Below, in pieces: positions 12,991 to 34,635 of a DNA stretch of 36,274 nt; within the stretch, counting starts at the first letter, position 1; every line of letters starts with the position of its first letter. The stretch lies in IMG/VR virus record IMGVR_UViG_3300036826_000250, positions 1 through 36,274 of that record; one strand, written 5' to 3'. The stretch comes from a virus. The position numbers were made by a program, and so were the translations under genes. The notes beneath the pieces are model-generated. The model was not told where the DNA came from. It searched no databases and worked only from the letters and a program-made list of their open reading frames with translations.

Positions 12991-14130
12991 TCAACCCGCC
13001 ATGATGCAGCCGAGTTCCGGCCGCACGCACTGGGCGCCCCACAGAATGTCGTACGAGAAGCGCGTCTGCTTGTGCTGGCGGCTGATCTCGACGCGGAGCA
13101 CGAGCCCGCTGATCGGGTCCACCGCCGAGCGGAAATTGCCGAGCCCGAACATGTCCTGCGTCTCGAGCGGGCGCGAGGCGAGCGCGAAGCAATCGCGATG
13201 GAACACGAGATTGTTGACGCGCGTCTGCCCGGACCCCTGGACGCTGATGGCCGTCGCCGACGCCGGGATCGCCTTCTGGAGACCGGGCGCGATCACGATG
13301 GACCCGCCGTTCGAGACGTCCGTGTCGCCGGTCACGATGGCGTACGTCTGATTGTCGCCGGCGAATTTCACGATGTCGCCGACGACGAGCGTCCCGGTCC
13401 CCGCCGACGCGAGCGTGATGGTCGTCGCGCCGAGCGCGTAGCCGGCGGCGTTCGTGGTCGAGCCCGAGGCGGTCCCCGGGGTGAACGACGCCACGTTCTG
13501 ATCGAGCACCCAGGTCGCCCCGAGCTTGTAGCCGATCTGGCCCTGGATGATGCCCTGCGTGTCGCCCCGGAACGAGGCGTCCTGGAACGCCCGGAGCCCG
13601 ATGGCGTTGGCCTCGGCGTCGACGTCCATCACCACCGCGCGATTGTCCATCGGGGCGAGCTGTCGGTTCAGCACCTTGCGGGCGTCCAGATACGCCTTCA
13701 GATCGGTGGCGAACGGAGTCGTGCCCGGCGTCCCGGCGAGCCCGTAGACCTTGGCGGCGAGCGAGAGGATGTGGGTGTCGACCTTGTTGGCGAGGGACTT
13801 GATCGCCTCGCCCGCCTGCATGGGGACGAAGCCCTCGATGACTTCCATGACTTCCTTGTCCGTCAGGTAGAACGGGGCCTCCCACCATTGATCGAGCGGA
13901 ATGTTCACGCTCGTGGGCGCGGAGTCCGTATTCGCGGGCGGCACCGTCGCGGGGGCGACCTGCTGCGCGGCGATCGCCGAGGGGATCGGCACGTCGATGG
14001 ACGAGCCCTTCCGGCCGGCGAGGACTTCGTATTGGCGATTGACGAGCCGGGGCATCACGGCCTGCTGGCGCAGCGTGACGAGGCCCTGGGCGAGGAGCTT
14101 GTCGGTGACGGCGGTGAGGACGTTCGGCAT
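12991..14130 (-). CDS. Major capsid protein, P22 coat-like (379 aa)
   Basis: ATG 14130 follows GGGAGG at 8 bases. The N-terminal part (MPNVLTAVTDKLLAQGLVTL) and the run IDVPIPSAIAA, IPLDQWWEAPFYLTDKE, then GEAIKSLANKVDTHILSLA are typical of the P22 gp5-like coat family. Residues about 216-298 form an inserted beta domain (ALGATTITLASAGTGTLVV, DIVKFAGDNQTYAIVTG), matching the insertion domain of this family. The C-terminus returns to the fold (NLVFHRDCFALASRPLE, SGLVLRVEISRQHKQT). Many copies form the icosahedral shell together with the scaffold encoded upstream. Confidence 0.94.
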   Translation of the reverse strand: MPNVLTAVTDKLLAQGLVTLRQQAVMPRLVNRQYEVLAGRKGSSIDVPIPSAIAAQQVAPATVPPANTDSAPTSVNIPLDQWWEAPFYLTDKEVMEVIEGFVPMQAGEAIKSLANKVDTHILSLAAKVYGLAGTPGTTPFATDLKAYLDARKVLNRQLAPMDNRAVVMDVDAEANAIGLRAFQDASFRGDTQGIIQGQIGYKLGATWVLDQNVASFTPGTASGSTTNAAGYALGATTITLASAGTGTLVVGDIVKFAGDNQTYAIVTGDTDVSNGGSIVIAPGLQKAIPASATAISVQGSGQTRVNNLVFHRDCFALASRPLETQDMFGLGNFRSAVDPISGLVLRVEISRQHKQTRFSYDILWGAQCVRPELGCIMAG

Positions 14131-14260
14131 CGGCGGGGCCTCCCCATGACTGCGGAGTGAGACCCCACCGGGGGGTACTGCCGACGCGTCCGAGGCCGGC
14201 CAGCGGGCCGGGCCGCCGATCCGTCGCGCGGCGACCGATCGGGGGCAAGCGTCGTGAGTC

Positions 14261-14277
14261 GTCGCCGTCTAGGCGAC
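14261..14277 (-). other. Small perfect hairpin after the scaffold gene
   Basis: GTCGCC and GGCGAC flank a five-base loop, starting about 8 bases after the scaffold stop in the minus direction. There is no U tract. A second imperfect hairpin lies at about 14217-14239. The 154 bases between scaffold and coat genes hold nothing else I can name. They may tune the relative amounts of scaffold and coat transcript. Confidence 0.4.
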
Positions 14278-14284
14278 GCGGGGG

Positions 14285-15013
14285 TTACGGGCGAATGACT
14301 TGCACGTCTCCTTTGGCGATCTGCTCGGCATGCCGGCCGAACGCCAGCGGGTCGGGATCGTAGAGCGCCCCCGTCTTCACGGTCTGCCCGGGGGCGAGCG
14401 TCTGCCGGCCGGGGCCCGAGCCCTGCGTGCGCCCGTAGAACGCCGCGGGCAAGGTCTTGAGGAACCCGTCGAGCGTGAGCTCATGGCCGTCCTTGTCGAG
14501 CACCGGCTCGTCGCCCGTGTCGCCACCCATCGCGCGGATCGTGTCACCCACCACGCGGAACCCGGCGCCCTGGGCGCGGCTGCGGACGTCGACCAGGTAA
14601 TCCGCCTGGACGCCGGCGCGTTGCGCCGCCTCATTCACGGTCGTGTCGAACGTCTGGCGCTCGGTCTTCGCCCGGAGCGCGTTCCGTTCCGTTTCCATCG
14701 CGGTCAGCCGCGTCTGGAGCGGCTTCGTCGCCGCCTCGATGCGTTGGGCCAATTCGTCGTCGTTCGGGGGCTTCGCACGCTTGCCGAGCTCCTCGAGCGC
14801 GGCGCGCGCCGCGACGGGATCGAGATCGCCGTACTTGTCCTTCAAGCCGGCGAGTTCGCCCGTCAAACGGCGGTTCGTCGTGCGGAATTCGTTCAGCTGC
14901 TCGACGGGGGCGAAGCCCTCCAAGACGAACGCGCCGTCGACGTCTTTGTAATGCTCGCGCAGGGGCTCGGCGAGCGCGGCGTGCTCGTCCCGGGTGAGCT
15001 TGTGTTTCAACAT
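14285..15013 (-). CDS. Capsid scaffolding protein (242 aa)
   Basis: I place the start at ATG 15013 (MLKHKLTRDEHAAL). A GTG four codons upstream at 15025 is possible. The protein is acidic and helical, with a coiled-coil stretch at about residues 40-140 (EQLNEFRTTNRRLTGELAGL, LQTRLTAMETERNALRAKT), then a Gly-rich tail near residues 195-215. Size, charge and place between minor head protein and coat protein are those of a phage scaffold, which guides procapsid assembly and then leaves. No protease domain is seen. Confidence 0.92.
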   Translation of the reverse strand: MLKHKLTRDEHAALAEPLREHYKDVDGAFVLEGFAPVEQLNEFRTTNRRLTGELAGLKDKYGDLDPVAARAALEELGKRAKPPNDDELAQRIEAATKPLQTRLTAMETERNALRAKTERQTFDTTVNEAAQRAGVQADYLVDVRSRAQGAGFRVVGDTIRAMGGDTGDEPVLDKDGHELTLDGFLKTLPAAFYGRTQGSGPGRQTLAPGQTVKTGALYDPDPLAFGRHAEQIAKGDVQVIRP

Positions 15014-23320: not shown

Positions 23321-23830
23321 TCACAGCGCGGCGACGCCCGGCAGGATCGGCGCGTCGCGATACGCGTCGGGGATCTGCGGCGGATGGACCGGCCCGCCGC
23401 GTCGCGCGGCGAGTCGGGTCCAGTGGGCGCGGTACGCGGACGATTCCAGGATGCGGCGGAGGCCCCAATCGGCGCGCCGATCGCCGACGGTGGTGGGCAG
23501 ATGCGCGTCGAAGTAGGCGCACCCGAACGGCGCGGCCGCGTGGACCCGGCAGCGGTCGTCGCGGTCGAGGAAGAGACATCGCCCCGAGGGGCGACGGCGC
23601 GGGACGAGGGTCGGGACGCGGGCGAGCGTCCCCTGGTGGGTCATCACCACCGCCCCGCTGGACGGGGCGAGCCACGCGTCGAGGTCGGCGGGCTCCACGA
23701 TCAGGCCCGCGACGGCGGCGGCGTTCGCGAGCGGGGCGAGGTCGCCCGGGATCAGATGCCCGGGCCAGCGGGTGCAGAACGCCACGTCGGTCGGGCACGC
23801 GCAGACGGTCCGGGGGAACGGCGGGATCAT
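23321..23830 (-). CDS. YkgJ-like cysteine-cluster protein (169 aa)
   Basis: ATG 23830 overlaps the previous stop by ATGA. Cysteines come in an order seen in the YkgJ/UPF0153 family: CACPTDVAFC near the start, then GRCLFLDRDDRCRVHAAAPF with GCAYFD after it. These proteins bind Zn or an Fe-S cluster through Cys residues and their role is largely unknown. Between the cysteine groups are a helix (PLANAAAVAGLIVEPADLDA) and VVMTHQGTLARVPTLVPRR. The C-terminal third is basic. A phage copy suggests a metal-binding accessory function, which the context does not specify. Confidence 0.87.
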   Translation of the reverse strand: MIPPFPRTVCACPTDVAFCTRWPGHLIPGDLAPLANAAAVAGLIVEPADLDAWLAPSSGAVVMTHQGTLARVPTLVPRRRPSGRCLFLDRDDRCRVHAAAPFGCAYFDAHLPTTVGDRRADWGLRRILESSAYRAHWTRLAARRGGPVHPPQIPDAYRDAPILPGVAAL

Positions 23831-24192
23831 TCGGTCGCCGCCGTCAGGCGGTCGAGCGCGGCGGTGTATTCCTCGATCTTCGATTGCCAGGACATCTCGA
23901 TTTGGGTGGCGCTCGTCTCGCAGCCGCGCACCATGCTCGGGGTGTAGTACTTGCCCGCGCATTCGGCGCGATCCAGGCGCGCGTGCTCGCGTTGCATCGT
24001 GGCGTAGGCGATGAACCGCGCGATTTCGTCTCGCGTGGCCGGCGTCGACGGGCCGCGTCCGCCGCCGCGGATGATCGGGGCATGGCTCGAGACCGATCGG
24101 GCGCCGAATCCCGAATGGACGTCGGGACCGCCCGCGCGGGCGAGCCCGGGCATGAGGCACAGCGCGAGCGTGAGCGTGAGGATGGGGGTCAT
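23827..24192 (-). CDS. Secreted small protein with signal peptide (121 aa)
   Basis: ATG 24192 follows GGAGG at 8 bases. The start TPILTLTLALCLMPGLARA is a signal peptide with a likely cleavage after ARA (residue 20). The mature part has a Gly-rich linker (SHAPIIRGGGRGPS), then helices TRDEIARFIAYATMQREHAR and QSKIEEYTAALDRLTAATE, with two cysteines near residues 78 and 91. A periplasmic or surface helical protein is likely. It lies between a lipoprotein gene and a cysteine-cluster gene, so two envelope-directed genes are neighbours. No family recognised. Confidence 0.88.
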   Translation of the reverse strand: MTPILTLTLALCLMPGLARAGGPDVHSGFGARSVSSHAPIIRGGGRGPSTPATRDEIARFIAYATMQREHARLDRAECAGKYYTPSMVRGCETSATQIEMSWQSKIEEYTAALDRLTAATE

Positions 24193-25176: not shown

Positions 25177-25304
25177 CGGGATTCCTCCGTCCGGCCGCAA
25201 TCGAAGACGCACGGGCCCCGGTGGCCGACGTCGCAGAGACATCGGCACCGGAAGCCCGCGCGGTGCGTGTGCGGGCAGGGGGCGTTGCACTTGACGGTGG
25301 GCAT
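25173..25304 (-). CDS. Cysteine-rich micro-protein (43 aa)
   Basis: ATG 25304 shares bases with the previous stop (TGATG) and the TGA overlaps the next start (ATGA). Seven of 43 residues are Cys with His nearby: CNAPCPHTH, CRCLCDVGH and CVFDCG. A treble-clef or double zinc knuckle is likely. Small phage proteins with the GFRCRCxCxxGHRGPC pattern are known, with no assigned role. The overlaps on both sides are strong evidence for translation. Confidence 0.86.
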   Translation of the reverse strand: MPTVKCNAPCPHTHRAGFRCRCLCDVGHRGPCVFDCGRTEESR

Positions 25305-26317
25305 CAATCCTCCTCGAGGGCGATGGCGCGCCGCTTCTTCGCCACGAGCATCGGCGCGATCGCCTGCTTGATCTGTTGAAAGCCCGCGCGGGTGCGGGCG
25401 CGGACGTCCGCCTGCTCCCGGATCGACTCCGGGTCGACGCCCGCCATGAGGGCGCGGGCCTTGTCCACGAGCGTGGCGAGTTGCCCGTCGTCGGTCAGGT
25501 TGCGGGCGCGGAACGTGTCGAGGAACTCCTTGACCCGCACGAGCGAGGTGTCGCGGAAGACCTGGGGCTTGCCGTTGGTGCGATCGGTCATCTTCTCGAC
25601 CATCTCGTCCACCACCTCGCCCATCGCGACGCGGAGCGCGATGCGGACGTCCTCGGCGGCGGACGCCATCGAGGCCTCGAACTCGGCGGTGGCCCGCCCG
25701 GCGAGCGCGGTGGAGATCCGGGCGAGCTGCCCGCCCGGCACCCCGAAGGAAATGTACGACCACCGGAAATCGAACAGGCCCGTCAGCGTGTCGACCGACG
25801 GGTATTCGTCCGGGTTGAACAGCGAGCCGAGCCGCGTCCGCGCGTCCTCCACGAGGCGCGGGTAAGCGGCGATGAACGCCTGAATCAGCGGCTTCCGCCG
25901 CGTGACGAACTCGGTCAACGTCGCGTCGACCTCGGCGAGGAGATCGAGCGCGACGAGATAGACGCCGTGACGGAAGAACGTGGCGGGGAGCGCGCGCCGG
26001 TAGATGTACCGCCGGGCGTCGGAATCGAGCCGCCGGATCGCCGTCAGCTCGTCGGATTCGAAAATGATCTTGGCGACGCGGATCATGTCCTTGTCGGCGT
26101 CGACCTCGACGGCCTCGGACGTGAGGCGCCGGCGCGTGCCGATCCGGCGCATGGTGACGGACAGACAGACCGCGCGGTCGAGGAGGTCGAGCCCGCCGCG
26201 CGGAGCCTCGGGCGTGGGCGCGGGCCCGATCGCCGCCTTCCGCCGCAGGACGGCGGCGACCTTCGGGAGCGTCTTCTTCGTGGGCGTCTTGGGCATCGTC
26301 AGGGTGGGCATCGTCAT
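25304..26317 (-). CDS. DUF3150-like protein of the AAA module (337 aa)
   Basis: Starts at ATG 26317 or, with better spacing from GGAG, at ATG 26311. The N-terminal 35 residues are basic and Thr/Pro-rich. The body is helical: LDRAVCLSVTMRRIGTRRRL at about 45-64, YIYRRALPATFFRHGVYLVA near 105, DATLTEFVTRRKPLIQAFIA near 130, then YPSVDTLTGLFDFRWSYISF and VPGGQLARIS. The order of elements resembles DUF3150, whose members often sit near phage AAA ATPases. The match is from memory of the pattern. It is downstream of the DUF2997-like gene in the AAA operon. No catalytic motif is visible. Confidence 0.9.
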   Translation of the reverse strand: MTMPTLTMPKTPTKKTLPKVAAVLRRKAAIGPAPTPEAPRGGLDLLDRAVCLSVTMRRIGTRRRLTSEAVEVDADKDMIRVAKIIFESDELTAIRRLDSDARRYIYRRALPATFFRHGVYLVALDLLAEVDATLTEFVTRRKPLIQAFIAAYPRLVEDARTRLGSLFNPDEYPSVDTLTGLFDFRWSYISFGVPGGQLARISTALAGRATAEFEASMASAAEDVRIALRVAMGEVVDEMVEKMTDRTNGKPQVFRDTSLVRVKEFLDTFRARNLTDDGQLATLVDKARALMAGVDPESIREQADVRARTRAGFQQIKQAIAPMLVAKKRRAIALEED

Positions 26318-26338
26318 GTCTCCGTGAATGCGCGTGCG

Positions 26339-26575
26339 TCACGCGTCGTGGGTGTGGGTGGTGTCGACGTCGTGGGCGTGTTCCCAGCCGTCGTGTGAAT
26401 GGACGTGGGCGTGGCGCCCCTCGGGCCGGGTCTCGGTCGTGGTCGTGCCGCCCTGGAGGCGGCGGATCGTGGCGAGGAACGCGTCCGCGTTCTCGTGATT
26501 GGGCGCGGACACCGCGTCGGTCTCCGTCTTCACGGTGCCGTCGCGGAGGATCGTGATGCGAATGCGGTCAGCCAT
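26339..26575 (-). CDS. DUF2997-like protein with His-rich tail (78 aa)
   Basis: ATG 26575 lies 8 bases inside the end of the preceding gene, after AGGAG. Residues 4-17 (RIRITILRDGTVKT) and the following NADAFLATIRRLQGG match the short DUF2997 family (IxIxIxPDGxVxxE, then CxxATxxLE). The last 28 residues are unusual, with nine His among Asp and Thr (HAHVHSHDGWEHAHD). A His/Asp-rich tail can bind Ni, Zn or Cu. DUF2997 proteins occur next to DUF1257 proteins and Ycf46-type AAA ATPases, as here. Function unknown. Confidence 0.9.
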   Translation of the reverse strand: MADRIRITILRDGTVKTETDAVSAPNHENADAFLATIRRLQGGTTTTETRPEGRHAHVHSHDGWEHAHDVDTTHTHDA

Positions 26576-26858
26576 TGGACTCTCCTGGCGCGGCGAGCCG
26601 CGCGTGTTGGGTGAGGATCGTGCGGGCGGGCTCCGTGACGGCGAGCCCCCAGGTGCCGCCGAGGGTGCAGACCGCCCAGATCGTCGCGTCGAGCTCGCGC
26701 CGGACGGCGACGTGGGACGGCTCGGCCTGATAGCGGAGGGCGAGGTACGAGGCCCGCCGCAGGAGCGAGGACAGGAACTGCCGCTCCTCGGCGGGGAGAT
26801 CGACGTCGGCCCGCGTGGGTGCGGCGACGTGGAGCGTGACCGGGAAGCGGGCGGTCAT
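26568..26858 (-). CDS. Small protein of the AAA module (96 aa)
   Basis: ATG 26858 is fused to the previous stop by TGATG, and the end overlaps the next gene by 8 bases. The sequence starts with strands (TARFPVTLHVAAPTRADVDL), then a long helix PAEERQFLSSLLRRASYLAL and a second VRRELDATIWAVCTLGGTWG. It lies between the DUF1257-like and DUF2997-like genes, so it probably belongs to the same unit. No family recognised. Confidence 0.88.
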   Translation of the reverse strand: MTARFPVTLHVAAPTRADVDLPAEERQFLSSLLRRASYLALRYQAEPSHVAVRRELDATIWAVCTLGGTWGLAVTEPARTILTQHARLAAPGESNG

Positions 26859-27229
26859 CAGTCCGCCCGCGTGAAGACGAGCGCGCGCTCGCCGGTCTGG
26901 GCGTCGACGTCGTCCGCCTCGACGTCCCACCCCATCTGGGCGGCGGCGACGGTGACGACTTCGCGGGCGTAGGCCTGCTTGATCGCGTCGATGAGGACGT
27001 CGGCGCGGTCGCGCCCGACGCCCTGCACGGTGACGACGTCGGGGCCGATCAGGACGGTGGCGCCGTCCGTGACGAAGCGGAGCCCGTTCAGCGGGTCGCC
27101 CGTCCGGTGGCGGTAGAGGGTGAGGGTCTCGGGCTCGACGGCGAAGCGCGTCTGGATGGCGAGGGCGAGGAGCCCCCGGTCGGCGGCTTCGAGTTTCGCG
27201 GTCGTGCGTTGGATCTGCCAACAGGGCAC
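26858..27229 (-). CDS. DUF1257-like protein of the AAA module (123 aa)
   Basis: GTG 27229 has AAGGAG 8 bases before it. The protein has alternating strands and helices: PCWQIQRTTAKLEAADRGLL, LALAIQTRFAVEPETLTLYR, TVLIGPDVVTVQGVGRDRAD and VLIDAIKQAYAREVVTVAAA, ending MGWDVEADDVDAQTGE. This resembles the Ycf35/DUF1257 pattern, where an A-L-A-G-Y-like helix, a VVxxG strand and a YxxxxVxxxAxxxGWxV end are typical. Ycf35-, DUF2997- and Ycf46-like genes occur together in several genomes, and the same trio is seen here. The match is moderate. Confidence 0.88.
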   Translation of the reverse strand: MPCWQIQRTTAKLEAADRGLLALAIQTRFAVEPETLTLYRHRTGDPLNGLRFVTDGATVLIGPDVVTVQGVGRDRADVLIDAIKQAYAREVVTVAAAQMGWDVEADDVDAQTGERALVFTRAD

Positions 27230-27233
27230 TGGA

Positions 27234-27725
27234 CTATCTCCTTTTGCGCGCGATGGCGCAGGTGCGACATGTGATGTAGGTGCCCGAGCGACCGTCACGC
27301 CGGCGGTACCACGCCGTCATGCCGTGTCGAGCGAGAAGGTGTCCGCGCTGACACCGACGACGGACGCCGCGCACGGTGGCCCGCGCGAGTCGCCCGGTCA
27401 TCGGATCACGACCGATCTCGCCGCGCTCCAGATGAAGGCGGCTGTGACAGCCGCGACAGAGGAAGTCGATGTTGCTCGGGTCGTTGTTCAGCGAATTGCC
27501 GTCGCGATGATGCCGAAACGCGGGACGTCCGCACGCGCAGCGTTGCGGAGGGAACGCGCGTTGCGCTCGTTTCCAGCCAGCGGCGCGCGAGGCGCGGTCG
27601 CCCTTTGAAACGGCGGCGCGTTGCCGTTGGCGAGCCTCGGGCGTGAGCCCGAGACGGAGGTGATGATGTTGGACAAAGCGTCGACCGCGCGCGATCCGTG
27701 TGCCACAGCCGCAGGCGCACGTCAT
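27234..27725 (-). CDS. HNH endonuclease with flanking zinc knuckles (163 aa)
   Basis: ATG 27725 is joined to the previous stop by TGATG; ends in TAG. The HNH core is complete: CACGRPAFRHHRDGNSLN at about 63-80, NNDPSNIDFLCRGCHSRLH at 80-98. His72-His73 and Asn86 are candidate catalytic residues, and the CxC...CxxC cysteines hold Zn. Two further Cys groups lie outside: CACGCG at 3-8 and CQRGH...CRTC near 125-155. Free-standing HNH genes in phages are often homing endonucleases that spread by cutting alleles lacking them. It splits the AAA-module genes, which fits a mobile insertion. Some HNH proteins instead assist packaging. Confidence 0.93.
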   Translation of the reverse strand: MTCACGCGTRIARGRRFVQHHHLRLGLTPEARQRQRAAVSKGDRASRAAGWKRAQRAFPPQRCACGRPAFRHHRDGNSLNNDPSNIDFLCRGCHSRLHLERGEIGRDPMTGRLARATVRGVRRRCQRGHLLARHGMTAWYRRRDGRSGTYITCRTCAIARKRR

Positions 27726-27943
27726 CACGACGCATCGAGTTTGGTGAGAGTGAGGGTCACGCCGCGCACCGCCCGCCGGCGACCGGTGGATTGGGCGCGG
27801 AAGTCGCGGACGAGCGCCCGCGCCGCCCGGTTGGCGGCGACGGACGCGGTCGAGGCCGACACGCGGGAGAGCCGCGCGCCGGGTTGCCAATAGCGCCCGT
27901 CGAAGACGGACGCGTTGGTGACGAGCCATTCGATGCGAGGCAT
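27725..27943 (-). CDS. Small protein after the AAA ATPase (72 aa)
   Basis: ATG 27943 follows AAGGAG located in the last codons of the AAA gene. The sequence has an N-terminal PRIEWLVTNASVFDGRYWQP, a basic middle helix (SVAANRAARALVRDFRAQST) and a strand VRGVTLTLTKLDAS. It is coupled by TGATG to the HNH gene. Possibly a dsRBD-like or small regulatory partner of the ATPase, but I recognise no family and the guess is weak. Confidence 0.87.
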   Translation of the reverse strand: MPRIEWLVTNASVFDGRYWQPGARLSRVSASTASVAANRAARALVRDFRAQSTGRRRAVRGVTLTLTKLDAS

Positions 27944-27946
27944 CGG

Positions 27947-29503
27947 CTACTCCTTGCCCACCGCGCGGCGCGACCGCAGGGGCGACGCGGTCACGCCGGG
28001 GGTCGGCGTCTGGGTGTACGTGCCGGGCGTGGACGCGGAGAGGAATCGTCCGGCAGCGAGCCCGCGCAGCCGGTCGATTTTCTCCGGGTCGGACTTGGCG
28101 ATGGGGACGAGGTACGCCGCCGCCTCACGCAACGTGCAGCCGAGGGCGTAGGCGTTGTCGACGCAGTTCCGAATGTCCGCGCCCGTCCAGTCGGTGTCAT
28201 CGGGGCGCGGCTGCGCCGGGTCCACGGTCGGGTAGCGCGCCAGGGTCAAGGTCCAGATCGCGCGCCGCTCCTCGTGAGTCGGCAGATCGAAGTACCAGAG
28301 GCCGCACCGCTCGAACCGGCGGCGCACCTCGGGCTTGAGGCTGGACAGGTCGTTACACGTGGCGACGAACAGCGCCCCGCCCCGACCGGCGAGCGCGCGG
28401 ATCGTCTTGAACAGGGCGCGGATGCGCTGCTCGGAGGAGCCGACGAACCGATCGGCGGTCGCGGCGAAGTCCGCCGTGATGCCGAGCACGTCGAACTCGA
28501 CGTGGAGCGCGGTGGTGAGGAACGTCTTGCCGGTGCCGGGCGGGCCCAACGTCAGGCAGCCGCCGTACTCCTGGTCCTCCATCTCGCGACAGATGACGCC
28601 GAGGCGATCGGTCGAGGTGCCGGAGGAATCGGTGGCCCCGCGGCCGTCGCCGCCGCCGGTGCCGCCCATCATCTTCTCGAACTCGTCGAGCCGCACGACG
28701 ACGCGCGGCCGCCGCGGGCCGGCGAAGTACCGCTGGGCCCAGGTCTTGAACGACTGATTGCCGCCGATCTCGGCGAACCGGACGCCGCCGCGCTCGACGG
28801 CGAGCCCGGGGGTCTGCTCGATCGCCGCGCGGCGGCGCTCGCGGAGATCCTCGAGATCGACGCCAACGCCGCCGGAGGCTTGCGCCCGGACGGCCATCGC
28901 GACGGCTTGCTCGGCCGGGTAGAGCGGGAGCCCGCGCACGGATTCGGCGACGCGGGTGATCGCCTCGGCGGCGAGGTCGTCGCCGACCAGCTCGCCGACC
29001 ATCGTGGTCAGCTGGGCGTCATCGGGCAGAGGTTCATCCAATTGCATGACGTCCGCCGCCAGCTCGGGCGGCCACGTGAAGGACGGCGCGAGCAGGACGA
29101 CGGTGCGCGGGGCGGGCTTGCCGTCCTCGTCGCGGGTGCCCTTCAACGCGTCGCGGAGGTTCCAGAGGGCCTGGGTCGGCCCCGCCGGGTCGGTCGGCCC
29201 GAAGAAGCGATGGGCGTGGACGAGGAACAGGACGGAACGCGGGGGCATTTTCGGCGCGGCGAGGAGGATCTCGGCGAGTTTGGCCCCGACGGGGGGGACG
29301 CCGAGCGCGGCGATCAACGCCTCGCCCGGGCGGTTCAACGGGCGGATCCCGCTCGCGATGTCCCACGCGGCGACGCCGGTCTCGCCGTTGACGGCGGCGG
29401 TGAGCGTCTCCATGGTCGCGGCGGCGTTGGACGTGGTGATGGCGACGAGCGAGGTGTCCGCGCGGCGCGCGTGCTTGAACGTGGTGACGAGATCGGTCGA
29501 CAT
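27947..29503 (-). CDS. Walker-permuted AAA+ ATPase, Ycf46-like (518 aa)
   Basis: ATG 29503 with AAGGAG at 8 bases; ends in TAG. Residues 1-170 form a degenerate N-terminal domain without a P-loop (SVLFLVHAHRFFGPTDP, TVVLLAPSFTWPPELAADV), as in Ycf46-type ATPases. The second domain is permuted. EIGGNQSFKTWAQRYF (245-260) is followed first by RVVVRLDEFEKMMGG (267-281, Walker B), then a Gly/Ser linker and helix, then Walker A GPPGTGKT (320-327), DRFVGSSEQRIRALF (351-365), sensor-1 FVATCND (379-385) and the arginine-finger region PEVRRRFERC (391-400). All active-site elements are present. Related permuted ATPases occur in other phages. Substrate unknown; a remodelling role is likely. Confidence 0.95.
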   Translation of the reverse strand: MSTDLVTTFKHARRADTSLVAITTSNAAATMETLTAAVNGETGVAAWDIASGIRPLNRPGEALIAALGVPPVGAKLAEILLAAPKMPPRSVLFLVHAHRFFGPTDPAGPTQALWNLRDALKGTRDEDGKPAPRTVVLLAPSFTWPPELAADVMQLDEPLPDDAQLTTMVGELVGDDLAAEAITRVAESVRGLPLYPAEQAVAMAVRAQASGGVGVDLEDLRERRRAAIEQTPGLAVERGGVRFAEIGGNQSFKTWAQRYFAGPRRPRVVVRLDEFEKMMGGTGGGDGRGATDSSGTSTDRLGVICREMEDQEYGGCLTLGPPGTGKTFLTTALHVEFDVLGITADFAATADRFVGSSEQRIRALFKTIRALAGRGGALFVATCNDLSSLKPEVRRRFERCGLWYFDLPTHEERRAIWTLTLARYPTVDPAQPRPDDTDWTGADIRNCVDNAYALGCTLREAAAYLVPIAKSDPEKIDRLRGLAAGRFLSASTPGTYTQTPTPGVTASPLRSRRAVGKE

Positions 29504-32868: not shown

Positions 32869-33068
32869 CACAAGCCCTCCAGGGACGGCGGCGGCCCGGG
32901 CTCGGCGAGCGAGTCCGGCTCCGTGTGCGTCACGCGGACGGTCGGCCACGCCGCGCGATCATCCGGGAAGCGCATCGCCACCTGGGCGTCGCCCACGGTG
33001 ACGATGACGCTCAGCGCCGCGTCGCGGCGGACGATGTCGAGGGCGACCCGGTCCCACGCAGCAGACAT
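32868..33068 (-). CDS. Small protein overlapping the ABC-GNAT gene (66 aa)
   Basis: ATG 33068 lies 58 bases inside the end of the ABC-GNAT gene in another frame, with GGAG 8 bases before it. The product SAAWDRVALDIVRRDAALSV, IVTVGDAQVAMRFPDDRAAW and TVRVTHTEPDSLAEPGPP looks like a small alpha/beta domain. In the overlap both frames keep plausible codons, so the C-terminus of the fusion protein may be a recent extension. Function unknown. Confidence 0.82.
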   Translation of the reverse strand: MSAAWDRVALDIVRRDAALSVIVTVGDAQVAMRFPDDRAAWPTVRVTHTEPDSLAEPGPPPSLEGL

Positions 33069-34171
33069 GTCACGCGCTCCTCGTCGGGCTCGGCGGGCCC
33101 CGTGTAGGCGAACGTCGCGTTCGGGCGGCCGCCGAAGTACCCGTACATGTTCTTCCGCGGCGTCGTCCAGTTGGGCGTCGACCAGATCCCCGGGCGCTTG
33201 ATGCACGCCCAGTGGGGCGAGCGCTCGAACGACCGAATCAGCGCCGGGTGCGCCGGATAGGTGTGGACGCGGAGCCCGCGCGTCTTGTACGCGGCGCCGA
33301 GCGCCTCGATCAGGATGAGGGCGAGCCCGAGCCCTTGCCAATCGGGGAGCGTCACGAGTCGAGAGCACCCCCACACGTCGGCGACCTTCGGATGGGGGCG
33401 GTACATCATCGCGGCGAAGGACGCGGGCTGCCCGTCGACGGCGAGCACGTAGCATTTCGCCCCGTGATGGAGCGACGCCGTCAGATAGTGAAAGCGACGA
33501 AACAGGTCCCAGGCGGCGTAGGGCACCCGGGCCACTTCGACGCCGAGCCGGGGGCGGGGTTGAACCGCCCTCCGGGTGAACGTCATGGTGGCGGGCTCGA
33601 GGAGCCAGTCGGGCTGGAGCCAGTCGATCACGTCGTAGTGGCACGTCGCCGCCACGAACTGCCGCCCGGGCGTCCGGCGGATCGCCTTCTGCACGGCGTG
33701 AGCGCCGATCTTCGCCACCTGGCGGTCGACGACCGAGGTGAATTCGTCGACGACGATGGGCCGGTCGGCGGGCGTCTCGACCAGCCGCCGCGCCAGCTCC
33801 ACCCGGAAGCGCTCGCCGTTCGACAGGACCCGGTACGGGCGCATCCAGGCGGGAATGGTGTTGAAGCCGACCGCTTGGCAGACCGCGCTGATCTCGTCCA
33901 TCGTGAGCGTCTTGGCGAAATCGTCCACGACCGCGGGCGCGGTCCACGCGTATTCGGTGGGCGCGCCGAAGCATTCGCGGAGGAGCGTCGATTTGCCCGA
34001 CCCGGACGGCCCGACCAGGAGCCCGATCTGCCAGGGCGCGGCCTCCACGGGCGCGTCGCCGTGCCAATCGAGGCGACTCTTGACGACGAGCGGGACATCG
34101 AACATCGCCGACAGTTGCTTGACGCGCGGCGACGTGGACAGATCGGTCTCGACGGCGACGTCGATCTTCAA
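33011..34171 (-). CDS. ABC-type ATPase fused to a GNAT acetyltransferase (386 aa)
   Basis: I place the start at TTG 34171, which overlaps the preceding TGA (TTGA) and follows AAGGA at about 9 bases. Residues 1-200 are an ABC ATPase: Walker A GPSGSGKST at 54-62, signature LSNGERFRVELARRL at 116-130, Walker B PIVVDEFTSVVDR at 138-150 with the catalytic Glu143, and the switch His178 in ATCHYD. No membrane domain is present, so it is not a transporter subunit. Residues about 205-355 are a GNAT fold with motif A RLVTLPDWQGLGLALILIEA at 271-290. Acetyl-CoA-dependent modification powered or gated by the ATPase is possible. The target is unknown. The genes around it are ParB- and RusA-like. Confidence 0.93.
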   Translation of the reverse strand: MKIDVAVETDLSTSPRVKQLSAMFDVPLVVKSRLDWHGDAPVEAAPWQIGLLVGPSGSGKSTLLRECFGAPTEYAWTAPAVVDDFAKTLTMDEISAVCQAVGFNTIPAWMRPYRVLSNGERFRVELARRLVETPADRPIVVDEFTSVVDRQVAKIGAHAVQKAIRRTPGRQFVAATCHYDVIDWLQPDWLLEPATMTFTRRAVQPRPRLGVEVARVPYAAWDLFRRFHYLTASLHHGAKCYVLAVDGQPASFAAMMYRPHPKVADVWGCSRLVTLPDWQGLGLALILIEALGAAYKTRGLRVHTYPAHPALIRSFERSPHWACIKRPGIWSTPNWTTPRKNMYGYFGGRPNATFAYTGPAEPDEERVTCLLRGTGSPSTSSAATRR

Positions 34172-34635
34172 ATCGTCCCGTCCTTGCCGAAGTCCGGCAG
34201 CCCGTCGCCGGCGGGATCGAGGCACGCCCAGAGATGCAGACAGAACTCGTGGAGGTTCACGTGCCGATCGGCGCGCGGGAAGACCTGGACGGCCTGGCGC
34301 TGATCGCCGACGAAGACGCGCTTCACGTCGGCGACGTCGGCGTAGGAGGGAATGTACTTCCGCCGGCTGACCGAGACGTGGAGCCAGAGCCGGCCCTCCG
34401 GGACGCCGTCCATCGCGTGGCGGGCGACGGTGCCGATCACGCGCCGCCCGTCGACGTGCTCGAACGTGCGGAGGCCGTCCAACCCCGCCGCCTGGAGATC
34501 CCCCCGGCGCGTCGCGCGCCACCCGTGCGGGAGCCGGAGGGCGTCCGCCCAGGCGGCGGTCTCGCGGGCCGCCTCGATGTACTCGACCTCGCTGCACAGC
34601 GGAATATGGGCGATCAGATGATGAGCGCCTTGCAT
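34168..34635 (-). CDS. DUF7694-like protein (155 aa)
   Basis: ATG 34635 lies 22 bases inside the ParB-like gene. The C-terminal half is the recognisable part: RLWLHVSVSRRKYIPSYADV at about 83-102, then DVKRVFVGDQRQAVQVFPRA, HVNLHEFCLHLWACLDPAGD and LPDFGKDGTI. The pattern WLHVSxSRxxxxPSxxD, Q-x-hxP, YVNxHxxxxHLW recurs in a phage family that I remember as DUF7694. The N-terminal half has a helix AARETAAWADALRLPHGWRA. Function unknown. It is coupled to the ABC-GNAT gene by TTGA, hinting at joint action. Confidence 0.88.
   Translation of the reverse strand: MQGAHHLIAHIPLCSEVEYIEAARETAAWADALRLPHGWRATRRGDLQAAGLDGLRTFEHVDGRRVIGTVARHAMDGVPEGRLWLHVSVSRRKYIPSYADVADVKRVFVGDQRQAVQVFPRADRHVNLHEFCLHLWACLDPAGDGLPDFGKDGTI

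Follow-up and report, generated by a model that had tools for sequence, protein, structure and literature searches.

A conserved AAA-DUF1257-DUF2997-DUF3150 gene module and a segment swap in the core of its phage-type AAA protein

We analyzed the whole IMG/VR virus record IMGVR_UViG_3300036826_000250 (36,274 bases; here called the window) and found on its minus strand a module of four genes, encoding an AAA protein, which we take to be of the Ycf46 type, together with members of the DUF1257 (Ycf35), DUF2997, and DUF3150 families. Two neighboring segments in the core of this AAA protein have traded places relative to canonical AAA proteins, a difference that appears as a single change on the protein tree. 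The four families recur together as a module; DUF1257 and DUF2997 behave as a linked pair, and DUF3150 also stands beside a second kind of AAA protein. We consider it reasonably probable that the four core genes encode one mobile-element AAA+ protein-remodeling machine with dedicated cofactors, working like the MoxR-VWA chaperones.

Results

Two adjacent core segments are exchanged in the AAA protein

The AAA gene (P0001; positions 27947 to 29503; minus strand, as for every module gene and segment below) encodes 518 amino acids and was examined through its open reading frame (ORF), Pfam matches, block profiles, and predicted fold. Its N-terminal part (residues 1 to 261; 28721 to 29503) was matched to D1, the first of the AAA rings of p97, when the folds were compared. 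Next comes a displaced beta3-alpha3 segment (residues 262 to 313; 28565 to 28720), which holds the Walker B residues D273 and E274 ahead of Walker A, and then the beta1-P-loop-alpha1-beta2-alpha2 segment (residues 314 to 375; 28379 to 28564), with Walker A GPPGTGKT at residues 320 to 327. The remainder (residues 376 to 497; 28013 to 28378) contains beta4 with sensor 1 (ATCND), the RRRF motif (394 to 397), and a lid with WTGADI. The protein thus departs from the canonical motif order of Walker A, Walker B, and sensor 1, and alpha2 runs directly into sensor 1. The Pfam AAA match is limited to residues 317 to 370 (E = 7.3e-10), as expected because the core is rearranged.

Profiles of these four blocks (A, 1 to 261; B, 262 to 313; C, 314 to 375; D, 376 to 497) were built from 72 aligned homologues. 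The order A-B-C-D was found in P0001 and in Tunturi_3 gp103, and the canonical order A-C-B-D in Firecracker gp100, in SM1_026 (block A match partial; block D, 3.5e-10), and in the planctomycete proteins of loci L105 and L106. The name Ycf46 is a tentative assignment, the profile comparisons covering canonical phage and planctomycete AAA proteins. These results, together with the structural model, bear out the original prediction of a permuted AAA and define the permutation as an exchange of two neighboring segments. A circular permutation was rejected because the C-terminal position of beta4, beta5, and the lid is unchanged.

The predicted structure has an AAA fold. The AlphaFold model (predicted local distance difference test [pLDDT] score, 92.1; predicted template modeling [pTM] score, 0.88) runs through its elements in the order E268-272, H296-310, E314-319, H326-336, E340-344, H354-372, and E377-383. 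It aligned with p97 D1-D2 (7lmz_C; Z = 18.8; root mean square deviation [rmsd], 5.9; 405 aligned) and with Vps4 (6bmf_B; Z = 17.4; rmsd, 2.8; 215 aligned). D273, E274, G320, G323, K326, T382, N384, and R396 are invariant in the 72 sequences; the roles of the Walker A, Walker B, sensor 1, and arginine finger residues were assigned by motif. The residue preceding the catalytic Lys is Ala in 60/105 loci and Gly in 34/105, including the window.

A profile of six swapped AAA proteins served as bait, with which 205 relatives were reported from viral contigs, 80 of them being kept, and a further 25 from genome contigs. Adding an excerpt of the window, Tunturi_3, and Firecracker gave 108 loci; counts on this set, and the type-pairing counts below, include a cut copy of the window (L006) and near-duplicates. 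The segments are swapped in 102 of the 105 assessable loci (101 A-B-C-D and 1 B-C-D) and canonical in 3 (L008, L105, and L106), although, given the swapped bait, 102 versus 3 is no census of the two orders. Three loci (L104, L107, and L108) were too short to call, and L053 and L054 are swapped by block profiles. The 25 genome-contig loci, 17 of them with acidobacterial titles, comprise 20 swapped proteins, 2 canonical ones, and 3 fragments. All 16 planctomycete AAA proteins adjoining DUF1257 have the order A-C-B-D, as do the AAA protein of a Candidatus Manganitrophus plasmid and 24/25 AAA proteins from five-gene planctomycete loci; the 25th is split into two ORFs, one piece of which reads C-B-D.

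A tree of 72 swapped and 4 canonical rows placed one change between the two orders (support, 99), as did a tree of 72 swapped and 18 canonical rows (support, 100). Both were quick trees that flagged long rows and left out near-identical, short, and some other loci. The simplest reading of these sequences is that one rearrangement gave rise to the phage-type branch.

Four families are kept together across viral and genomic loci

On the AAA strand, DUF3150 was found in 98 of the 108 loci, DUF2997 in 97, DUF1257 in 96, and all four families in 93. Gene order was AAA-1257-2997-3150 in 58 loci and AAA-3150-1257-2997 in 22, the other 28 being different or incomplete; many missing members fall at contig ends. 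Because the four families occur together in 93/108 loci and in several orders, clustering exceeds chance, and togetherness has been kept through rearrangement. The proposal of one conserved unit around the permuted AAA, related to the Ycf46/Ycf35/DUF2997 gene group, is upheld by these counts. Nor are homologues of the small proteins mostly found away from an AAA neighbor: with DUF1257 as bait, a Ycf46-type AAA was present at 16 of 17 planctomycete loci, and with DUF3150 as bait, an AAA was present at all 25 planctomycete loci fetched.

The family names given from the window sequence hold at the level of families, though the matches of the window's own proteins are weak. The window DUF3150 protein matched PF11348 below the gathering cutoff (E = 1.9e-4; 21.3 bits versus 24.9), the DUF1257 protein matched PF06868 at E = 0.033, also under the cutoff, and the DUF2997 protein gave no match to PF11211 in the Pfam scan. 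Among families built from these proteins, Pfam matches were obtained for 25/57 DUF1257 members (E ≤ 0.01; best, 1.9e-14), 31/57 DUF2997 members (best, 5.4e-18), and 25/67 DUF3150 members (best, 2.6e-9).

DUF1257 and DUF2997 change type together

The window DUF1257 gene (26858 to 27223), a core member, has a GTG start, the listed ORF beginning further upstream, and encodes a type B protein, defined by an MPC start. Type A proteins start mostly with MSH or MSK and sometimes with MSA; 4/63 have no recognized start. The DUF2997 gene (26339 to 26575), also a core member, is likewise of type B, with no Cys, an NH motif, and a His-rich tail (the tail present in 31/33 type B proteins), type A having a Cys in the middle. 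The types of the two proteins agree in 96/96 loci (33/33 B-B and 63/63 A-A). Types A and B are homologous by profile alignment (hhalign E = 1e-9 for DUF1257 and 2.8e-8 for DUF2997). On the AAA tree of 72 swapped rows, type changes 13 times, with 6 changes forced by well-supported branches, and DUF2997 tracks DUF1257 in 6/6 independent pairs (P = 0.031). The two genes thus switch together as one unit, a pattern that speaks for direct partnership, and these sequence patterns are evidence for an obligate pair. The Cys/His chemistry of the pair suggests that it may bind metal. A further small family, the fifth, is marked by a RASHVEP motif and accompanies type A only (43/63 versus 0/33 for type B). 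Sequence searches for PDB relatives of DUF1257, DUF2997, and DUF3150 gave none that was convincing, the best being a DUF2997 row at E = 4e-4 (15/64 residues).

In 19 loci (L033, L048, L066, L070, L084, L086 to L088, L090 to L096, L100, L102, L107, and L108), 12 of which are acidobacterial metagenome-assembled genomes (MAGs), the genes clustered with the module include a radical-SAM-like ORF. The copy in L090 matches Fer4_12 (E = 6e-27) and Radical_SAM (E = 3e-8), and similar ORFs were seen by eye beside the planctomycete trios L141 and L143. Like the cyanobacterial ferredoxin gene fed7 discussed below, these neighbors hint at an iron-sulfur link.

DUF3150 accompanies two kinds of AAA protein

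The DUF3150 gene of the window (25304 to 26317), the fourth core member, encodes a mostly helical protein. By VIA, its best match (Z = 9.9) was to helical bundles, matches that the tool's own note rates as uninformative. In Tunturiibacter phage Tunturi_3 (L007), gp96 (13699 to 14658) is annotated as an HNH endonuclease, yet it is a DUF3150 member by profile, and the label is probably a misannotation; used as a query, this protein retrieved only itself among phages.

Plasmids carry the module as well. A search of plasmids for the AAA protein gave four matches, of which the gene content is described here for the Candidatus Manganitrophus plasmid: its genes run AAA-DUF1257-DUF2997-DUF3150-RASHVEP, the commonest phage order, and a ParB gene lies on the same plasmid. 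A planctomycete DUF3150 query matched 39 plasmids. On both Burkholderiales plasmids examined, DUF3150 (E = 1.7e-37 and 2.2e-36) lies between an ATP-binding and a VWA-like protein, with a PRTRC ThiF gene upstream. A search with one of these ATPases showed it to be midasin-like (E = 3.8e-5). Two kinds of AAA protein are thus found in the company of DUF3150.

Planctomycete copies lie among defense genes

DUF1257 was found in 17/199 planctomycete genomes and, among 14 control genomes, only in Synechococcus elongatus; DUF2997 was found in 31/199. Within flanks of about 1.5 kb, DUF2997 accompanies DUF1257 at all 17 loci and the AAA at the 16 given above. A DUF3150 query hit 32 places in 14/294 genomes, of which 25 were fetched (contig ends, fragments, and one weak match were left out); an AAA is present in all 25, DUF1257 in 23, the RASHVEP gene in 21, and DUF2997 in 19, some absences being due to contig ends or ORF calling. 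Eleven of the 25 also carry an X-JAB-ThiF gene set (Pfam: ThiF, 6.7e-23; Prok-JAB, 0.0018; X, none). No ThiF or JAB of this kind occurs in the 108 loci, where one short match to X was seen, in L016.

In the flanks of 22 planctomycete loci (3 of the 25 being dropped as near-copies), PADLOC matches at E ≤ 1e-15 covered 155 families for 133 proteins, compared with only 4 families for 125 proteins from random control regions of the same genomes (4 of 129 were dropped for size, and region L211 yielded none). PADLOC families are redundant; therefore, 155 families are not 155 systems. Fifteen flank proteins, chosen by size or eye, were scanned singly and identified defense genes at 9/22 loci: Gabija GajA and GajB, PglW (two), DrmD-like (two), HmaA-like, type I restriction-modification (two), and a weak Lamassu-like match (1.3e-12). 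Control regions also gave strong single matches (bSEFIR, 6e-63; mad2, 1.6e-22), and integrase-like ORFs, recognized by eye, flank several planctomycete loci. Against PADLOC-DB 2.0.0, the AAA proteins of the window (8e-5) and of planctomycete locus L144 (1e-11) matched IetA-AAA only; the window DUF3150 and the L144 DUF1257 gave no PADLOC match, and the L144 DUF3150 gave one stray match (2.4e-4).

Individual planctomycete loci showed further features. The G245 chromosome has an unusual burst of paralogues, with seven DUF3150 loci (L181 to L187), six of them with X-JAB-ThiF (L182 to L187); L185 has a second DUF1257. In two planctomycetes, chromosomal AAA-DUF1257-DUF2997 trios (L138 and L139) are followed, by eye, by zinc-ribbon-like and PilT-like ORFs. 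In L202 (7400 to 10369), from a planctomycete-phylum genome, a canonical AAA stands in the phage-like order AAA-1257-2997-3150, without RASHVEP and at a contig end; this locus is possibly an intermediate form.

Other genes of the window

The seven ORFs of the region were confirmed in position, strand, and transcription order, as were the TGATG overlaps (72-aa/HNH and DUF1257/96-aa) and the 8-base overlap (96-aa/DUF2997) from which a single unit had been predicted. Three of the seven do not belong to the conserved module as first supposed. Profiles of the 72-aa protein (27725 to 27943), the HNH-endonuclease-like protein (27234 to 27725), the 96-aa protein (26568 to 26858), and a 177-aa protein retrieved only the window copies from the 108 loci, barring L001, which holds a 96-aa homologue and a weak 72-aa homologue (37% over 43 amino acids; E = 2e-5 in a two-sequence test). 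The 96-aa protein is accordingly a lineage-specific accessory. The HNH gene (Pfam E = 0.032; PHROG, 1.8e-5) is missing in L001 from between the same two flanking genes and is probably an insertion into the module region.

Elsewhere, the window encodes tailed-phage head functions (terminase large subunit, portal, head morphogenesis, scaffold, and major head protein) as well as ParB-like and RusA-like genes. Downstream of the module, a small Cys-containing ORF (23321 to 23956), presumably YkgJ-like, has look-alikes by eye in L001 and L005 and no PHROG match. A 528-aa protein (33011 to 34597) matches phrog_11143, of unknown function (5e-92), and ABC-transporter-type families.

Discussion

In the reading that we favor, the motor would be the Ycf46-type AAA+ protein, in which an AAA-like N-terminal part lacking Walker motifs precedes an ATPase domain like that of p97 and Vps4; it should form a ring and spend ATP in pulling on or remodeling a target protein. 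In the phage-type core, the Walker-B-alpha3 segment would have moved ahead of the Walker-A segment, most simply once, with the predicted fold and catalytic residues kept. DUF1257 and DUF2997, as an obligate pair, would probably form one joint adaptor, perhaps metal-binding, and DUF3150 would be a helical cofactor linking motor and client. Around DUF3150, the Ycf46-type AAA and the DUF1257/DUF2997 pair may occupy the places taken elsewhere by the midasin/MoxR-like ATPase and the VWA-like protein. The original prediction had spoken of a phage remodeling or host-takeover system. We retain remodeling as the favored proposal and reject host takeover as the specific role: the module also occurs without phage, on plasmids and in bacterial chromosomes, and is therefore not specific to phage infection.

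Several observations weigh against this reading. Complex formation, ATP-driven remodeling, and metal binding are inferred, and the set of 108 loci stems from searches that used a swapped AAA bait and search words of the swapped family. Some loci are incomplete with several kilobases covered on at least one side: Firecracker has the AAA only, L098 a short AAA only, and L099 and L103 (Nitrospira MAGs) the AAA and DUF3150 only. L067 has the AAA and DUF2997 only, L034 lacks DUF1257 and DUF2997, and L091 lacks DUF3150; SM1 has the AAA, DUF1257, and DUF2997, but a DUF3150 gene was not found within the 14 kb retrieved. Nor does the His/Cys start provide DUF1257 with a fixed ligand, many type A proteins starting with MSK or MSA. 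The role of DUF3150 is drawn from gene context because Foldseek found no match among PDB folds (best E = 0.48), and the term MoxR-type for the plasmid ATPases would follow from the midasin match. Finally, plastids and cyanobacteria also have Ycf46 and Ycf35; the original function may thus have been a housekeeping one.

Alternatively, the module could be a conflict system, acting against phages from planctomycete defense islands and serving phages and plasmids as a weapon against rival elements, with the AAA remodeling or unfolding an invader complex, in some hosts together with the ThiF/JAB ubiquitin-like set. The excess of PADLOC families in planctomycete flanks, the named defense genes at 9/22 loci, the X-JAB-ThiF sets, and the presence of up to 7 module copies per chromosome are consistent with this idea. 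Nevertheless, the scanned module proteins match no PADLOC system beyond the generic IetA-AAA and the stray DUF3150 hit, and the defense genes may be fellow cargo, with integrase-like ORFs nearby. The enrichment itself is tempered by the redundancy of the families, the choice of singly scanned proteins by size or eye, and the strong matches in control regions. In addition, the phage neighbors look by eye like recombination and replication genes, and ThiF/JAB is absent from the 108 loci. We regard a conflict role as possible, though unlikely. Stated in full, as an undescribed mobile-element system of a Ycf46-type motor, an obligate DUF1257/DUF2997 adaptor, and DUF3150, ThiF/JAB-coupled in planctomycete defense islands and with a non-circularly permuted phage-type core that is still an ATPase, the proposal is rather doubtful.

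The module might instead serve the element's own DNA, as some AAA proteins do, by remodeling replication, recombination, or partition complexes. Some neighbor clusters of the 108 loci were named by eye as DnaB-like (in 12 loci), SSB-like (in 8), ERF-like (in 9), or exonuclease-like (in 9); DnaB and DNA polymerase are annotated downstream in SM1, PRTRC_E stands beside the module in L090, and to these may be added the ParB gene of the Manganitrophus plasmid and the ParB-like and RusA-like genes of the window. Early phage regions carry many unrelated genes, however; each cluster occurs in a minority of loci, and the planctomycete trios displayed share no such neighbor visible by eye. This explanation, too, we regard as possible, though unlikely. 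A chaperone role in virion assembly, as proposed for the MoxR-vWA pairs of jumbo phages in the part of PMC7824862 that we draw on, would fit the broad machine type and the neighbors that DUF3150 has elsewhere, a midasin/MoxR-like ATPase and a VWA-like protein; because plasmids and chromosomes also carry the module, and the module of the window lies apart from its consecutive portal, head, and terminase genes, it seems quite improbable. That the swapped order is an artefact of misassembly or frameshift, or the protein a dead pseudo-ATPase, is suggested by the rule of canonical AAA order and by the unusual P-loop with Ala before the catalytic Lys (the window has Gly), but the exchange recurs in loci from many metagenomes, MAGs, and the isolate phage Tunturi_3, and the arginines and the residues of Walker A, Walker B, and sensor 1 are conserved, such that the artefact is refuted and the reading as a whole most improbable.

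A large phage-type family has retained a swap within its AAA+ core along with the catalytic residues, a natural experiment on rewiring of the P-loop fold; under the conflict-system proposal, if true, this would mean that an AAA fold can accommodate exchanged internal segments. The module ties three uncharacterized families into one testable machine, and its phage and plasmid versions, including the isolates Tunturi_3 and SM1, offer compact model systems for finding the client.

We found no description of the four-family module in the literature searched, and neither a description of a permuted or swapped AAA core nor a paper mentioning DUF3150, most subscription journals lying outside the search. 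The available part of PMC10853773 uses "circularly permuted" of methylases, and the main text of PMC11924767, on the Tunturi isolates, contains neither "ATPase" nor "DUF" in the part available. For red-algal plastids, the accessible part of PMC5940233 reports that presence of ycf35 and ycf46 goes with habitat; the portions of the literature examined give no mechanism for either gene.

Among known systems, the canonical Ycf46-type AAA proteins of planctomycetes, SM1, and Firecracker are closest, sharing all four blocks with the window protein (the N-terminal one partially in SM1) and, in planctomycetes and SM1, the DUF1257 and DUF2997 neighbors; the phage-type branch differs from them in the order of the two core segments and in the Ala or Gly before the Walker A Lys. 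The p97/Cdc48 and Vps4 proteins are alike in predicted fold, whereas the phage-type AAA has a different segment order, a first domain without Walker motifs, and no ThiF/JAB in the 108 loci. The PRTRC (ParB/ThiF-related) plasmid cassette touches the module through PRTRC_E in L090, an acidobacterial locus, and through the ThiF gene upstream of DUF3150 on two plasmids; it differs in that the 108 loci lack ThiF/JAB of the planctomycete kind, the other PRTRC genes not having been searched for there. In Synechocystis, according to the section of PMC4284462 available, Ycf35 (DUF1257), DUF2997, and fed7 form one cluster, so that DUF1257 and DUF2997 stand together as here, with a ferredoxin and with no AAA or DUF3150 named. 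MoxR-VWA systems likewise join an AAA+ motor to a dedicated partner, as we propose for the module, and a MoxR-vWA pair is reported to be needed for tail assembly in a two-tailed archaeal virus (PMC7824862, in the part consulted). The module differs from them in its Ycf46-type motor and in having DUF1257/DUF2997 in place of the VWA protein; no MoxR-type AAA adjoining a VWA gene is seen in it, no VWA having been noticed among the neighbor clusters named by eye. We conclude that AAA+ proteins with cofactors, as a kind of machine, and the grouping of DUF2997 and ycf35 with a ferredoxin gene were known before, and that the rearranged core and the four-family set are novel variations on them.

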